The notes beneath the pieces are model-generated. The model was not told the DNA's origin. It searched no databases and saw only the letters and a list, made by a program, of their open reading frames with translations. DNA of 64,000 nucleotides from Neopararhizobium haloflavum (GTDB lineage: Bacteria > Pseudomonadota > Alphaproteobacteria > Rhizobiales > Rhizobiaceae), in the NCBI RefSeq assembly GCF_002750855.1, contig NZ_NWUC01000002.1:558001-622000 (forward strand), in the 5' to 3' direction. Made by a program: the position numbers and the translations under genes. Below are positions 56,898-62,704 of the stretch, one piece after another. Every line of letters begins with the position of its first letter. Within the stretch, counting starts at the first letter, position 1.

Positions 56898-58172
56898 ATG
56901 GTAGGCGCACTCGTACCCGTATTCTTTGGCCTGCTTCTGTTCGGCCTCCCGATCTTCGGAGCACTGGCCCTGTCAGTGGCGGCCGTGCTCTATTTCTGGG
57001 GTGGCATCGACCCCGTCCTCGTGCCGATGCGCATGTTCTCGGGCATGAACAATTTCTCGCTGATGTCGATCCCGTTCTTCATCCTGGCGGCCGAACTCAT
57101 GCGTATTGGCGGCCTGTCGGAGCGGCTCATCAACCTTGCGCGGGCCGTCGTCGGCTGGCTGCCGGGGGGGCTGGCAGCAGCGGCAATCGTCGCCTGCCTG
57201 ATGTTCGGATCCATCTCGGGTTCAAGCCCCGCGACCGTGATCGCCATCGGATCGATCCTTTACCCTGCAATGGTGGACGCGGGCTATGACAAGTACTTCT
57301 CGATCGGGCTGATAACGACCGCCGGGACGCTTGGGCCAATCGTGCCGCCTTCGATCGCACTCATCATATACGGGTCCGTCACCGGAACCTCCGTGGGTCA
57401 ACTCTTCGCCGCAGGCTTGCTGCCCGCCCTGCTGATCGGCGTCATCCTGATCACCTATGCAAGCTGGTACTCCGCACGGAAGGGATATCCTCGTGACGCC
57501 ATGCCAAGCGTCTCGAGTGTCGTGACCGCGGTAAAGCAGGCGGCTTGGGGCCTCGGCCTGCCTGTCATTCTGCTGGGCGGGATCTATTCGGGCGTCTTCA
57601 CGCCAACCGAGTCCGCCGCAGCAGCCTGTCTTTACGGCTGGCTCGTCGGCGCAGTCGTCTATCGCAGCATTTCATTTCGCGACACGCTGACCGTGCTGCG
57701 CAACACGGGGCTCATCTCAGGCCCCCTCCTCCTCATCACTGCAGGCGCCTCAGCCTTCTCCTGGCTCCTTGCCAGTACGGGCGCACCCTCGCAATTGGCC
57801 AGCTTTATTCTCAGCGATACCAGCAACGGCATTGTGGTCCTGCTGCTCTTCAACCTGATCCTGCTGGTTGCCGGCTGTTTCCTGGACAGTGCCTCTGCCA
57901 TCATCATTCTCGGCCCGCTGATGATGCCGATCGCATCGCAGGTCGGCGTCGACCCGATACATTTCGGTGTGATCATGCTGGTGAACCTTTCGGTCGGGAT
58001 GCTGACACCGCCGGTCGGCCTCAATCTCTTCGTCGCGATGGGTGTCGCGAACATGAAACTGGGCGAGGTATTCCGTGCCACGCTGCCCACAATCGTCCTG
58101 ATGCTGATCGCGCTCGCGATTTTGACCTATGTGCCGGTCATCAGCATGCTGCTTCCGAGCACATTGTTCTAG
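56898..58172 (+). CDS. dctM: TRAP transporter large permease (DctM)
   Basis: A 424-residue DctM subunit with about 12 spans: MSIPFFILAAELMRIGGLSE, CLMFGSISGSSPATVIAIGS, VPPSIALIIYGSVTGTSVGQ and the C-terminal NLSVGMLTPPVGLNLFVAMG. It is the last gene of the RidA-divergent amidase/TRAP operon and is followed by a convergent hairpin terminator. Confidence 0.94.
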   Translation: MVGALVPVFFGLLLFGLPIFGALALSVAAVLYFWGGIDPVLVPMRMFSGMNNFSLMSIPFFILAAELMRIGGLSERLINLARAVVGWLPGGLAAAAIVACLMFGSISGSSPATVIAIGSILYPAMVDAGYDKYFSIGLITTAGTLGPIVPPSIALIIYGSVTGTSVGQLFAAGLLPALLIGVILITYASWYSARKGYPRDAMPSVSSVVTAVKQAAWGLGLPVILLGGIYSGVFTPTESAAAACLYGWLVGAVVYRSISFRDTLTVLRNTGLISGPLLLITAGASAFSWLLASTGAPSQLASFILSDTSNGIVVLLLFNLILLVAGCFLDSASAIIILGPLMMPIASQVGVDPIHFGVIMLVNLSVGMLTPPVGLNLFVAMGVANMKLGEVFRATLPTIVLMLIALAILTYVPVISMLLPSTLF

Positions 58173-58247: not shown

Positions 58248-58724
58248 CTAAACGGTCCCTCGCCTCGACAACCCGTGATCGATCGAAAACCGTCCGGGCC
58301 CGTGCTTGATCAGCAGCAGGAGACACACCGCCCAGAGCCCATGGATCTGCCAGGCTTCCGGGTAGACGAAGACCTGAATGATCAGGGTCATGAGAAGCAG
58401 GGCAAACGCGGAAAGGCGCGTGGCAAGGCCGATGACGAGCAGGATCGGAAAGAAGTGCTCTGCGACGGTCGCCATCACGGCAGCCAAACGAGGGTCGATC
58501 AACGGCAACGCGTATTCGTGCTCGAACAGGAAATAGGTCTGCGGCTTGATCGTCAGGCCATCGATCTTCGTGCGGCCGGACGCCCAGAACACCGAGGCGA
58601 TAACCAACCGGGCTGCCAGCGATAGCAGGGAACTGGGTACGCTTTGCGCAACGCCGCGGCCCCGGCTGGACAGCATGCGAATGCGCGAGCCCCAATCCGA
58701 GGCTGTCGGAATCAACTGCGTCAT
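58248..58724 (-). CDS. bufD: DoxX-family membrane protein (bufD-like)
   Basis: A 158-residue four-span DoxX protein with [20 protein letters not shown], the [20 protein letters not shown] segment, [20 protein letters not shown], and a C-terminal [10 protein letters not shown]. In bufferin operons a DoxX protein follows BufC and is thought to act at the membrane in maturation or redox support. The ATG at 58724 overlaps the bufC stop (ATGA) and follows GGGAGAC. Last gene of the operon. Confidence 0.85.
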
Positions 58725-59461
58725 TGCCTTGTCTCCCGGCTGTCCTTTATGAGCGCGCCCCAATTGGCGAGTTGACCGATCACGGCAACGTCCCCGATCT
58801 CTTCGCCGTTGAGAGCCCGGCGCGGCAGCGCGTCGAACACATCGGCAACGACCTCTTCGATGAGGTGGAGATTGACGGTCATCGCCGGCCGCGCGATCAG
58901 CACGGTCTCAGCCTTTGTGGCGCGGATGCGCTCGGGCAACGAACCGGGCTGATTGGCAAGCCAGATGGTGAAAACGGGGAAGCGGGAGCGCAGCACCATC
59001 GCAGCCGGGTGGGGCCGCAGGCGGGGCCGGGCCTTGGCCAGATGCAGCATCGCTTCCGAAGACGTCAAAGGCACGGCATCGGCTGCATGATAGGCGTGAA
59101 CGCGCAGCACTTCGAGCGTCGCGACATCCGCGAGATATGGGAGAGCCGATGCGGGTGGAAATCGCTGGATGAATCCGGGAAACCCATCACCGTACCGCAT
59201 CAGGGCCGGCGACCGCGGCGGAGTTGCGAGCACGAAAGCGCGTGCCATGGCGCGGAAGAAATCAGCGCCGACCAATCGCCGAACGACAGGAAAGCTGGCC
59301 GCCAACTGTTCGACCAGTCCGGAGACGACGTTGTTTCGATGGACCGCGAAACGCTCCGCCTGCTGGCCGCCCGGGTCGGCGAGAACGCCTGCGGGCAATG
59401 CAACGTCCGGCCCAATGACGGCCGCGGCGAAGGCTGCTTGAACATCAGCAAAGGACGGCAT
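58721..59461 (-). CDS. bufC: DUF2063/HvfC-like bufferin maturation partner
   Basis: A 246-residue protein with an N-terminal DUF2063 domain: [91 protein letters not shown]. In studied systems this partner binds the precursor peptide and presents it to the DUF692 oxidase. The start lies inside the 3' end of bufB (17-base overlap), indicating coupled synthesis of the two. Confidence 0.88.
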
Positions 59462-60335
59462 GTGTTTCACCCACCTTGTTCGACGTTTCAGCATGACGTC
59501 CCGCCCGGTCCATGACGTTGGCAGCCCGTTGCGCCTCGCCGAACAGGATCGGCCATTCGGGCACGTCGTTGTCCCACTCGATAAGCGTCGGCAGCGCTCC
59601 GCATTGCGCGATGATCGTTTCGAACAGGTCCCAGACCGGATCGGCAACCGCAGCGGAATGCGAGTCGATCAGAAGCGTGGCGCCGTCCGACAGGCGATCG
59701 GCGTGATGTCCGCCAAGATGGACCTCACCCACCGCGCGGAGCGGGATGGCGGAAAGATACTCGCGCGCCGCTGTGCCATGGTTGACGGCACTGACGAAAA
59801 CGTTGTTCAGATCAAGCAGCAATCCACAGCCGGTGCATTCGACAACCGCGCCGAGAAAATCGGTTTCGGTCATCGTGCTGTCGTTGAAGCTGAGATATGT
59901 CGACGGATTCTCGAGGAGCATCTGGCGACCGAGCAGATCCTGCACCTCGTCGATATGGGCCGAGACCCAATCGAGGGTTTCCGCCGTATAAGGCAGGGGC
60001 AACAGGTCGGCAAAATGGTTCTCGCCGTGGCTGGACCAGGCGAGGTGCTCGGAAAAACTCGCCGGCTGGTAGCGATCGCAAAGACGCTTGATACGCTGGA
60101 GATGGGAACGATCAAGAGGCGCCGGCGCACCGATATTCAATCCCACCCCGTGGATCGACAGAGCGAGGTCTTCGCTCAGACGCGATAGTTGCGCGTGTGG
60201 CGGTCCACCCTCGCCCAAGAAGTTCTCGGCGTGCACTTCGACGAAGGCAAGGTTGGGCCTCGTCCCGATAATGTCGGCGAAGTGTCGGGCCTTGAAGCCG
60301 ACACCGACGCCCAACGGCAATGCAGCGGGTATCAT
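59445..60335 (-). CDS. bufB: DUF692 multinuclear iron oxidase (MNIO), BufB/HvfB
   Basis: A 296-residue DUF692-family TIM-barrel enzyme. GVGVGFKARHFADIIGTRPN, FVEVHAENFLGEGGP, LSIHGVGLNIGAP, QPASFSEHLAWSSHGENHFA, LLENPSTYLSFNDSTM, DLNNVFVSAVNHG, EVHLGGHHADRLSDGATLLI and LIEWDNDVPEWPIL supply the His, Glu and Asp iron ligands expected of MNIOs. Such enzymes oxidise Cys of the precursor to thiooxazole rings in bufferins. The ATG at 60335 follows GGGAGAA. The precursor gene ends 63 bases upstream. Confidence 0.92.
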   Translation of the reverse strand: MIPAALPLGVGVGFKARHFADIIGTRPNLAFVEVHAENFLGEGGPPHAQLSRLSEDLALSIHGVGLNIGAPAPLDRSHLQRIKRLCDRYQPASFSEHLAWSSHGENHFADLLPLPYTAETLDWVSAHIDEVQDLLGRQMLLENPSTYLSFNDSTMTETDFLGAVVECTGCGLLLDLNNVFVSAVNHGTAAREYLSAIPLRAVGEVHLGGHHADRLSDGATLLIDSHSAAVADPVWDLFETIIAQCGALPTLIEWDNDVPEWPILFGEAQRAANVMDRAGRHAETSNKVGETHAVLC

Positions 60336-60398: not shown

Positions 60399-60680
60399 TC
60401 AGGCGTCCCGCTCGATCGGCTCGAGCGAGCCCATACCAAGTGGCGTCTCGATATCGGCGCAGGTGCCGGCCGGAACCAGCGTCCACGCATTGCCCTGATA
60501 GTCGGTCGTGGAGGTGCCGGCGCAGGTCGTGCCCGGTCCTGCGGCGCAGTCGTTCTCGCCAGCAAGCGAAACGCCGTAGCATTTCTCCATGTCCTCCTGG
60601 GCCATGCTGGGCGTGGCGGAAAGTGCCATGGCGACGGTGAGCGAACCAACGGCGACAAGTATGCGATAATCTGGCTTCAC
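60399..60680 (-). CDS. bufA: DUF2282 bufferin-type precursor peptide (BufA1)
   Basis: A 93-residue secreted precursor. Signal sequence to about Ala27 (SMA-QED). The mature part has four Cys: Cys34 in [11 protein letters not shown], Cys45 in NDCAAGPG, Cys53 in TTCAGTS and Cys74 in PAGTCADI, with the family block [17 protein letters not shown]2282 peptides with this layout become bufferins, RiPPs whose Cys are turned into thiooxazoles and which bind copper. The start is GTG at 60680 after GGAGAGA; an in-frame ATG 11 codons earlier gives no signal-peptide-like start. An ECF-type promoter lies 50-80 bases upstream. Confidence 0.88.
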
Positions 60681-60730: not shown

Positions 60731-60758
60731 TTTCGTCGAAGATGGCGCCGGTGTTACA
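60731..60758 (-). promoter_or_regulatory. ECF (SigF-type) promoter of the buf operon
   Basis: On the minus strand TGTAACA (60758-60752), 16 bases, CGAAA (60735-60731). The same -35 and -10 elements with the same spacing occur before sigF on the other strand. Predicted transcript start about 60724 gives a 44-base leader to the bufA GTG. GTAAC/CGAA is the pattern known for SigF-like ECF factors of Caulobacter. Confidence 0.8.
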
Positions 60759-60800
60759 GCGCTCACGGCTTCGTGTTTTTCAAGTGATGCCTGGTGCGGA

Positions 60801-60828
60801 TGTAACAATCCGGTACGCGGCAGCGAAA
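60801..60828 (+). promoter_or_regulatory. ECF (SigF-type) promoter of sigF (autoregulation)
   Basis: TGTAACA (60801-60807), 16 bases, CGAAA (60824-60828), identical core and spacing to the divergent buf promoter. The -10 element ends only 8 bases before the sigF ATG, so a transcript from it would be almost leaderless. Confidence 0.75.
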
Positions 60829-60836
60829 GGAAGGCA

Positions 60837-61394
60837 ATGGTGGCCTTGGACGAGACGCGCCTGGCAGATCTTCTGCGCCGTGCAAACCGCGGCGATGCTG
60901 CCGCATACGCGGATTTCTATCGCACGCTACTTCCCGCCCTGAGGCAGATCGCCCACGGTGTGGTGAGAACTGTCGGTGGCCGCCCGTCGGACGTAGAGGA
61001 CGTGGTGCAGGAAACGATGATCGCAATCCATCTCAAACGTCACACCTGGCGTGAGTCCGAAATGGTCGGACCGTGGATACGCGCGATATCGCGCTACAAG
61101 TCGGTCGATGTCATGAGGCGTCGCGGACGCCACGGCGCGTCGGTGGACATAGACGTCGTTACGGAAACACTCGCTGCGCCGACGATCGAGGACCCGACAG
61201 CACGAACCGACCTGGAACGCTATGTCTCAAGACTGGGCGGCAAGCCGGGAGCGATAGTCAAGGCCATCGGTCTCGATGGCCAGGAGATTGTCGAGGTCGC
61301 CAGGCGGATGTCGATGAGCGAGGGCGCCGTGCGCGTTGCGCTCCATCGTGGGCTGCGCAAACTTGCGGCGCTCAGAACACAGGAAGCGGATTGA
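60837..61394 (+). CDS. sigF: ECF RNA polymerase sigma factor, SigF-like
   Basis: A 185-residue ECF sigma factor. Region 2 covers YADFYRTLLPALRQIAHGVV to SEMVGPWIRAISRYKSVDVM with the -10 helix DVEDVVQETMIAIHLKRHTW. Region 4 is IVEVARRMSMSEGAVRVALH followed by RGLRKLAALR. The ATG at 60837 (or GTG one codon later) is taken; upstream in-frame sequence crosses the promoter. The NrsF-like anti-sigma gene starts 3 bases after it. By analogy with Caulobacter SigF it should respond to oxidants or metals and switch on buf genes and itself. Confidence 0.9.
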   Translation: MVALDETRLADLLRRANRGDAAAYADFYRTLLPALRQIAHGVVRTVGGRPSDVEDVVQETMIAIHLKRHTWRESEMVGPWIRAISRYKSVDVMRRRGRHGASVDIDVVTETLAAPTIEDPTARTDLERYVSRLGGKPGAIVKAIGLDGQEIVEVARRMSMSEGAVRVALHRGLRKLAALRTQEAD

Positions 61395-61397
61395 ACC

Positions 61398-62036
61398 ATG
61401 GAGACGGAAAAGCTGATCGCGGCACTTTCGCAGGATGCCGCATTGCCGCAACGCTCCCTTGTGCAGCGCCAGCTTGCTGCCGGATCGATCGCCGTTGTCG
61501 TTGCCTTCTGCGCGTTCGCACTTTTCGTCGGTCCGAGAAGTGACATCGCCTCAGCGCTTGAGACGCCACGATTCTTGCTGAAGCCGGTATTGACGCTGCT
61601 GCTTTTCGCAGCCGCATTTTTCGCCCTCGCACGCGCGATACGGCCCGGCTCCAAGCCCGGATCGGCGCAAGCCGCGCTGCTGATCGCGCCCGTTTTTCTT
61701 GGCATCGCAGTCATCACGGAAATGACGATTGTCCCATCGGCCCAATGGGGCGAGAAAATGCTCGGTACGAACGCGATGCTGTGCCTGACCGTCATGCCGG
61801 CGCTTTCGTTCGGACCGTTGATGGCCTTTCTCTGGTTCTTGCGGCAGGGAGCCCCGACCCATCCCGCCCGCGCCGGGGCGATCGCCGGCCTTGCCGCCGC
61901 CGGGCTCGGGGCCACCTTCTATGCGCTTCACTGCACCGACGACAGCCCGCTGTTCGTCACCGTATGGTATCCCATGGCAACAGCGATCGTCGTTACGGTC
62001 GGGTCACTGATGGGGCGGCGGTTGCTACGCTGGTAG
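61398..62036 (+). CDS. nrsF: NrsF-like membrane anti-sigma factor (DUF1109)
   Basis: A 212-residue protein with a short cytoplasmic N-terminus (METEKLIAALSQDAALPQRS) and six membrane segments, matching the NrsF/DUF1109 family. Two Cys, in NAMLCLTVMP and YALHCTDDSP, are at places where NrsF relatives carry conserved redox or metal-sensing Cys. It is expected to hold the sigma factor at the inner membrane until stress. Directly linked to sigF (3-base gap). Confidence 0.88.
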   Translation: METEKLIAALSQDAALPQRSLVQRQLAAGSIAVVVAFCAFALFVGPRSDIASALETPRFLLKPVLTLLLFAAAFFALARAIRPGSKPGSAQAALLIAPVFLGIAVITEMTIVPSAQWGEKMLGTNAMLCLTVMPALSFGPLMAFLWFLRQGAPTHPARAGAIAGLAAAGLGATFYALHCTDDSPLFVTVWYPMATAIVVTVGSLMGRRLLRW

Positions 62037-62321
62037 GCGGATGGGCAGGTAACCATCTCGGCGACACGGAGCCATTCCGCCGGTTGGATTTTGTGCTCAC
62101 ATCGGCACTGCCACATTTTGGCGTGCTGCCAACCCAATGATGCAATCAGGATGGGGGTTGACAGGTTCGTCATCCAATTTGGAATGATTGTTCCGGATCG
62201 GAAAGCGCTCGGCATGAGCGTCAAGCACGAGGGAGACCCGGCCCAGATCAGCCGGCGCCCTGGGCCGGAAGGTCGCGCATATGCGGGTCAACAAGCTAGC
62301 GTTGGAGCTTCAGAGCGGATT
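62037..62321. other. Non-coding stretch after nrsF
   Basis: About 285 bases between the nrsF stop and a hairpin beyond the 3' end of the small secreted protein gene. Short open frames are present but show no ribosome site, family resemblance or codon preference. A GGTAACC at 62049 lacks a matching CGAA at the correct spacing. I see no gene here. Confidence 0.5.
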
Positions 62322-62348
62322 GCATGGGCGAGACTTGCTCGCCCATGC
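62322..62348. terminator. Perfect 11-bp hairpin downstream of the small secreted protein gene
   Basis: GCATGGGCGAG, loop ACTTG, CTCGCCCATGC, 17 bases past the stop codon at 62366 on the minus strand. The stem is perfect but no T-tract follows on either strand. It probably ends or stabilises the short transcript from the ECF promoter at 62678-62704. Confidence 0.55.
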
Positions 62349-62365
62349 GTTGGCATCAGTCGAAT

Positions 62366-62617
62366 TCAGCGCAGTATCTGGGAACGCGGCGACGCGTCGC
62401 CGAAGCGATCATGACCTCGTGCGGTCATGCCGCCGCGAGCGGGATCGGCAATGCCAATCGCGGCGGTAGGGGTATAGTCGATGCCCGGAGAGACGGTTTC
62501 AAAATTCGGCGCCGCATCGCCGAAGCGATTGCTAGCACCATAGTCGCCGCTGTCCGAAGCGGAGACGCCTGCCAGTGGAATGGCTGCCAGGATCGTGGCT
62601 AGGATGATCGTTCGCAT
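62366..62617 (-). CDS. Small secreted Cys-free protein, predicted SigF regulon member
   Basis: An 83-residue protein not recognised as a known family. A clear signal peptide (MRTIILATILAAIPLAGVSA, cleavage after Ala20) leaves a mature chain of about 63 residues without any Cys. It contains two copies of RFGDA followed by Ala-Pro or Ser-Pro (residues 31-35 and 71-75), the second at the C-terminus in GHDRFGDASP. The ATG at 62617 is preceded by AGGAGAACC. An ECF promoter matching those of bufA and sigF lies 61-87 bases upstream, so it should be induced together with the bufferin. Its role is unknown. Confidence 0.7.
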   Translation of the reverse strand: MRTIILATILAAIPLAGVSASDSGDYGASNRFGDAAPNFETVSPGIDYTPTAAIGIADPARGGMTARGHDRFGDASPRSQILR

Positions 62618-62677
62618 GATGGTTCTCCTGAATTGGGTTGGCTTGTCAGAAGCGGTTGTCCCGCATCTGCTATGGTC

Positions 62678-62704
62678 TTCGCCCACCCTGGAGCGTTTGT
62701 TACC
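62678..62704 (-). promoter_or_regulatory. ECF (SigF-type) promoter of the small secreted protein gene
   Basis: On the minus strand GGTAACA (62704-62698), 16 bases, CGAA (62681-62678), then G. Core and spacing equal those of the bufA and sigF promoters. Predicted transcript start about 62671, giving a 54-base leader containing AGGAGAACC before the ATG. Confidence 0.7.

Follow-up and report, generated by a model that had tools for sequence, protein, structure and literature searches.

SigF-NrsF pairs that control bufferin genes form a known and widespread copper/envelope-stress switch. The SigF-NrsF regulon of Caulobacter crescentus is described as CC3252-CC3257, CC2907-2905 and CC2748; its sigF-nrsF operon is divergent from a DUF2282-DUF692-DUF2063-DoxX operon, GTAACC-N16-CGAA promoters precede both, and NrsF has two cysteines, features in which the locus described here is alike (PMC3511200). 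The same divergent layout is given for RpoE7-EcfR7 and SMb20530-SMb20527 of Sinorhizobium meliloti, where promoters were mapped before SMb20530 (TGTAACA-N16-CGAA) and before rpoE7 (TGTAACA-N15-CGAA) (PMC6180224); we found that pSymB carries both sequences in the corresponding divergent positions. For EcfF-OsrA of Bradyrhizobium japonicum, GTAAC(g/a)-N14-15-(c/t)CG(t/a) promoters, a transcript start 6 bp after the -10 box and the cysteines Cys129 and Cys179 are reported (PMC3420878). BcrS-AbcS of Brucella melitensis, which goes with bcrXQP, is an ECF16 sigma/NrsF-family pair with TGTAAC and GCGAA promoters at two divergent operons (PMC8315932). Buf1 bufferin clusters have the same DUF2282 precursor, MNIO, DUF2063 and DoxX genes as the locus studied here, and sigma factor and NrsF genes occur in them, according to the account in PMC12452194.

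We analyzed a window of 64,000 nucleotides from Neopararhizobium haloflavum and found a cluster of this type near its right end. From left to right, the genes are doxX, bufC, bufB and bufA (all on the minus strand), sigF and nrsF (plus strand) and ssp (minus strand). The features are as follows.

58248..58724, minus strand: doxX, DoxX-family membrane protein (Pfam PF07681, 63.1 bits)
58721..59461, minus strand: bufC, DUF2063 protein (PF09836, 95.2 bits)
59445..60335, minus strand: bufB, MNIO bufferin maturase, formerly DUF692 (PF05114, 344.7 bits)
60399..60680, minus strand: bufA, DUF2282 bufferin precursor (PF10048, 90.6 bits)
60731..60758, minus strand: predicted SigF-type promoter of the bufferin operon, TGTAACA-N16-CGAAA (matrix score 20.96)
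60801..60828, plus strand: predicted SigF-type promoter of sigF-nrsF, TGTAACA-N16-CGAAA (matrix score 23.44)
60837..61394, plus strand: sigF, ECF sigma factor of 185 aa (PF04542, 38.5 bits; PF08281, 28.1 bits)
61398..62036, plus strand: nrsF, anti-sigma factor, directly after sigF (PF06532, 179.7 bits; cut-off 26.8)
62366..62617, minus strand: ssp, exported protein of 83 aa with a signal-peptide-like start, AGGAGA before the ATG
62678..62704, minus strand: probable SigF-type promoter of ssp, GGTAACA-N16-CGAA (matrix score 16.99)

The bufferin genes fit the Buf1 type: the bufA product has a signal-peptide-like N-terminus and four cysteines (34, 45, 53 and 74), matching the Buf1 pattern of a DUF2282 precursor with paired cysteines, and reaches only 20 bits with the BufA2 model (cut-off 60), and BufB scores 366.3 bits with the NCBIfam MNIO_BufB model (cut-off 310), as a Buf1 maturase does. 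The sigF product consists of regions 2 and 4 only, with both domains over their cut-offs, and an adjacent DUF1109/NrsF anti-sigma gene, nrsF, is present as in group ECF16; against the NCBIfam equivalog PRK12512 the sigF product scores 183.4 bits, below the cut-off of 198. The two ECF16 cysteines (129/131 and 179/181) are found in NrsF as Cys129, shared by 27 of 27 aligned NrsF proteins, and Cys179, shared by 26 of 27. Since NrsF reaches only 96.8 bits with NF042994, the model of Caulobacter-type NrsF (cut-off 300), we file it as an NrsF-family protein and not as that equivalog. The genome has one NrsF gene and one MNIO gene.

The cluster begins right after a TRAP-transporter operon that is shared with a congener (G002) at 82% identity. 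Similarity to this congener ends at 58161, and from there to the contig end nothing matches the 40 kb taken from G002 for comparison. NrsF, the maturase and ssp are each absent from all three congeners; hence, in this small set of genomes, ssp and the cluster occur together. The break at the TRAP edge and the absence from the congeners show that the cluster is an accessory block, either gained here or lost in the congeners, and a sample of four genomes is too small to decide between the two. No tRNA adjoins it in the stretch scanned (L245).

A preliminary description of this DNA had placed three promoter-like sites here, each facing a gene, and a pattern search of the window agrees with it: KGTAACA-N16-CGAA lies at 60732-60758 (minus), 60801-60827 (plus) and 62678-62704 (minus), oriented toward bufA, sigF and ssp, respectively. 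The distance from CGAA to the start codon is 51 nt for bufA (GTG, 60680), 9 nt for sigF (ATG, 60837) and 60 nt for ssp (ATG, 62617). The first two sites carry the ECF16 pattern (T/C)GTAAC-N17-CGAA at sigF and at its target operon, and the third has G in place of T/C. The sigF-side CGAA ends 9 nt before the ATG (60801-60839), so transcription beginning 6 nt past the box would give a leader of some 3 nt, and the SigF-dependent sigF mRNA may be nearly leaderless. In the 19 fetched loci of relatives that have the sigF-side motif, the mechanically chosen sigF start is 0-20 nt past it, and a similar overlap is reported for B. japonicum ecfF (PMC3420878). Scans for sigma-70-like and terminator-like signals at these promoters gave only near-chance numbers.

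The preliminary description had also called for a scan of the whole genome, and we found that these three sites are the only matches to KGTAACA-N16-CGAA in 4,171,940 bases; this core pattern was chosen after the fact, and its reversed control has one match genome-wide. Within the window there are three exact matches, and 100 dinucleotide shuffles of it gave none (mean 0.00). If one mismatch is tolerated, the window has 10 matches versus 9.4 expected, which is no excess over chance; hence, the strength of the observation is in exact matches at one place and not in general enrichment. The looser GTAAC-N17-CGAA has 11 genome matches (eight outside these three; reversed control 31), and GTAACN{16,17}CGWA has 24 (21 outside these three; reversed control 146). 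Of these 21, 14 are placed inside ORFs by a mechanical rule that is crude, since it wrongly puts the bufA and sigF sites inside a read-through frame of 401 codons. The exact Caulobacter-type GTAACC-N16-CGAA is also present elsewhere in the genome, once within a gene. Near the two Oxidored_molyb genes, we found neither GTAAC-N16/17-CG(A/T)A nor the one-mismatch variants tried. Across 20 SigF-bearing genomes, the motif counts range from 2 to 21 per genome among the matches listed and are mostly not above the reversed control. Hence, the motif alone is not diagnostic, and we built no cross-genome regulon on it.

The promoters before bufA and sigF are conserved. NrsF is present in 25 of the 101 genomes searched (this one included), and the nearest SigF relatives among named genomes are Hyphomicrobiales. 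A CGAA-type match was found at 19 of 25 NrsF loci of relatives (own locus excluded) and none was seen at the other six. With CGTA allowed and longer stretches used, the sigF-side motif is present in 19 of 20 fetched loci, a fraction flattered by the five left-out loci (G023 twice, G044, G079 and G086), which had no CGAA-type match, and the divergent motif is present in 15 of 20. The motif precedes bufA in 11 of the 12 relatives' loci that carry bufA. One of these genomes (G047) has bufA 2.3 kb from sigF and retains a motif there; hence, the motif goes with bufA itself and is not just a property of the intergenic DNA shared with sigF. At some loci lacking bufA (L081 and L082), the divergent motif lies before the gene of a small methionine-rich protein that is exported. 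Among 80 loci from named genomes, NrsF directly follows SigF in 50; the motif lies within 160 nt upstream of sigF in 32 of these 50 and is missing in 18, and BufB is nearby in 26, 18 of which have the divergent motif.

The preliminary description had argued from the identical core and the exact 16-base gap of the three sites. This argument is right in effect, and identity is not what makes the sites work: neither feature is required, because the promoters of relatives vary in the sixth base (A in 17, G in 11 and C in 6 of 34 sites), in the gap (15 or 16) and in the -10 box (CGTA in 5 of 34, otherwise CGAA). Immediately before GTAAC, 31 of the 34 sites have T or C and one has G, the base found at the third site.

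We trained a weight matrix on the 34 sites of relatives, leaving this genome out, and found that its top three scores in the window are exactly these sites (23.4, 21.0 and 17.0; the next is 12.4). The best score in 400 kb of other DNA from this genome (20 stretches of 20 kb) is 13.9; the floor of the matrix is biased, since the pattern was also what selected the sites used for training. In leave-one-out scoring, four of the 34 promoters fall below the third site. Among the 21 pattern matches elsewhere, two score within 0.5 of the third site or above: L008 (17.6) and L250 (16.8). We rejected L008 despite its score as it spans a start codon. L250 is intergenic, 57 nt upstream of an ORF of 80 codons with no evident ribosome site, and the gene on its left points away; it is a possible SigF target that we did not count. 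L007 is palindromic and intergenic and was rejected with a score of only 13.9, as were L005 and L251, the two strands of one intergenic palindrome, with scores of 6.1 and 10.9. This palindrome, GGTAACCTTCTGGTTACC, lies between two divergent genes (G000:C5:11056-11091), has SigF-like matches on both strands and resembles an operator more than it does an ECF promoter. For finding SigF targets in relatives, the matrix is useful, as is the CGTA form of the -10 box.

The ssp gene is credible: AGGAGA, a good ribosome site, lies upstream of its ATG, the encoded protein begins like a signal peptide, and this genome has a paralogue (58% over 43 residues, E 5.4e-8). Its product has two RFGDA-x-P units flanking GIDYTPTAAIG and is probably disordered: AlphaFold2 returned no fold (mean pLDDT 52, pTM 0.13). 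With a profile that contains ssp itself, the family was found in 22 of 395 genomes of the bacterial family, with up to 12 copies in one (G048), and no match among Pfam or NCBIfam models was found. Small exported proteins of the ssp family with units IDYTATASIG and RxGDGSP occur in some genomes as tandem copies (L102, L100-L110, L122-L129). The ssp homologues of one genus (L105, L106, L107 and L129) share TGAAACTT-N-CCCGTAAC about 72 nt upstream of the start; this reads GAAAC-N17-CGTA and differs from the SigF pattern by one mismatch. The genomes concerned lack NrsF, and the shared element is perhaps a promoter of another ECF sigma factor.

Taken as a whole, the best explanation is an ECF16-type SigF-NrsF stress circuit with bufABC-doxX, sigF-nrsF and ssp as outputs, to which we give a probability of roughly 0.77. 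Its starting points are direct observations: the sites, the genes, the conservation of the first two promoters and the conserved cysteines. NrsF would hold SigF at the membrane, and an envelope signal sensed via Cys129 and Cys179 would free it, as release in relatives suggests. Free SigF would start transcription at GTAAC-N17-CGAA promoters. The divergent output, bufABC-doxX, would make and mature a copper-chelating bufferin, if the chemistry follows that of relatives, and action of SigF on its own sigF-nrsF operon would provide feedback. The third promoter, about 640 nt beyond nrsF and facing back, would drive ssp, whose product, we guess, may assist the same stress response from the periplasm or after secretion.

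The preliminary description had tied the bufferin operon, the sigma factor and the small secreted protein into one stress response, which is plausible given that the Caulobacter SigF regulon is copper-induced and a sigF::Tn5 mutant is copper-sensitive (PMC8224329); the published signals differ among species. Chromium and cadmium, and not generators of reactive oxygen species, are the signals reported for Caulobacter (PMC3511200), hydrogen peroxide is the one reported for Bradyrhizobium (PMC3420878), and the S. meliloti fusions described in PMC6180224 responded to none of hydrogen peroxide, cadmium or chromate. By analogy, the signal here would be copper or another metal or an oxidant.

That the three matches are coincidental or bound by another factor, with no SigF regulon here, is very improbable. 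The chance level of the one-mismatch motif in the window and the placement of most other genome matches inside ORFs would fit that view, and it is opposed by the conservation, the mapped promoters in relatives and the matrix ranking. We conclude that the bufA and sigF sites are ECF16/SigF-type promoters by sequence, in the known SigF-NrsF/bufferin arrangement. A larger chance, still well short of even, goes to a second factor that also uses the sigF promoter, which would make co-regulation of the three genes only partial. Such shared use is reported for Caulobacter, where activity of the sigF promoter persists when sigF is mutated and autoregulation of sigF is not strong (PMC3511200). Against this, B. 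japonicum ecfF (PMC3420878) and S. meliloti rpoE7 (PMC6180224) appear autoregulated, and a second factor would modify the three-output circuit and not replace it.

The claim of a local SigF regulon holds for the bufferin operon and for sigF itself, where the ECF sigma factor and NrsF are present and the conserved promoters match those mapped in S. meliloti; the ssp part is drawn from sequence and position. Alternatively, the promoters of bufA and sigF may be the only real ones, with the third site a fortuitous match upstream of a small gene that has no connection with them. This site scores lowest of the three, two sites elsewhere are alike, and the full motif is found within 220 nt upstream of none of 17 ssp homologues (a one-mismatch version in five); these are the 23 ssp entries less four too near a contig end, ssp itself and the second entry of the paralogue in this genome, which has no motif upstream. 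NrsF occurs in only one of the 21 other genomes with ssp-profile hits, and the hit there is a 26-residue stretch within a 300-residue frame. No ssp-like gene was found in the 20 fetched relatives' loci or in the 50 named SigF-NrsF loci. Chance is nevertheless an unlikely source of the third site because of its position: about 0.003 equally good sites, calculated from the scores of matches elsewhere, are expected over the 5.8 kb that surround the cluster (0.03 if the plain pattern is used), and this is before requiring an intergenic place, the direction and a start codon 60 nt on, preceded by a ribosome site. The absence of ssp, NrsF and the maturase together from the congeners also speaks against chance, so that we consider a chance third site improbable, slightly more so than the second factor, and ssp likely to be a third SigF target. 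Since the ssp homologues lack the full motif and all but one of the other genomes with profile hits lack NrsF, the link, if real, is lineage-specific.

Tentatively, the three-output circuit may have captured as its third output a probably disordered exported repeat protein whose family is otherwise found in genomes without SigF-NrsF, often in tandem. If so, the copper/envelope stress response would have in ssp a new effector restricted to this lineage, one that might act in the periplasm next to bufferin, either as a partner or as a decoy for metal or oxidant. More generally, if ssp is truly driven by SigF, a family of tiny exported repeat proteins without a Pfam or NCBIfam model becomes a possible source of new stress effectors. 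We recognized no ssp-like SigF target in the literature searched, which does not prove absence.

Among the known systems, that of Caulobacter includes two more operons, a second bufferin-like one and one for YedY/MsrP (PMC3511200), whereas the present genome has a single maturase gene, no exact motif at its two Oxidored_molyb genes, and ssp instead. S. meliloti differs in a gap before rpoE7 that is one base shorter, and we found no match to the ssp protein among the plasmid records. The Brucella target is described as a methionine-rich peptide with MsrPQ and not a bufferin, and the methionine-rich protein at the L081 and L082 loci of relatives resembles this target, BcrX (PMC8315932). B. japonicum EcfF differs in a larger target set, reported as induced by hydrogen peroxide (PMC3420878), and ssp is not among the genes named for Buf1 bufferin clusters in PMC12452194. 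Hence, the bufA and sigF promoters repeat the known SigF-NrsF/bufferin system and add a well-conserved example of it. The regulon is compact, with probably three promoters in a stretch of less than 2 kb, and what is new in it is the third site, which likely serves ssp.
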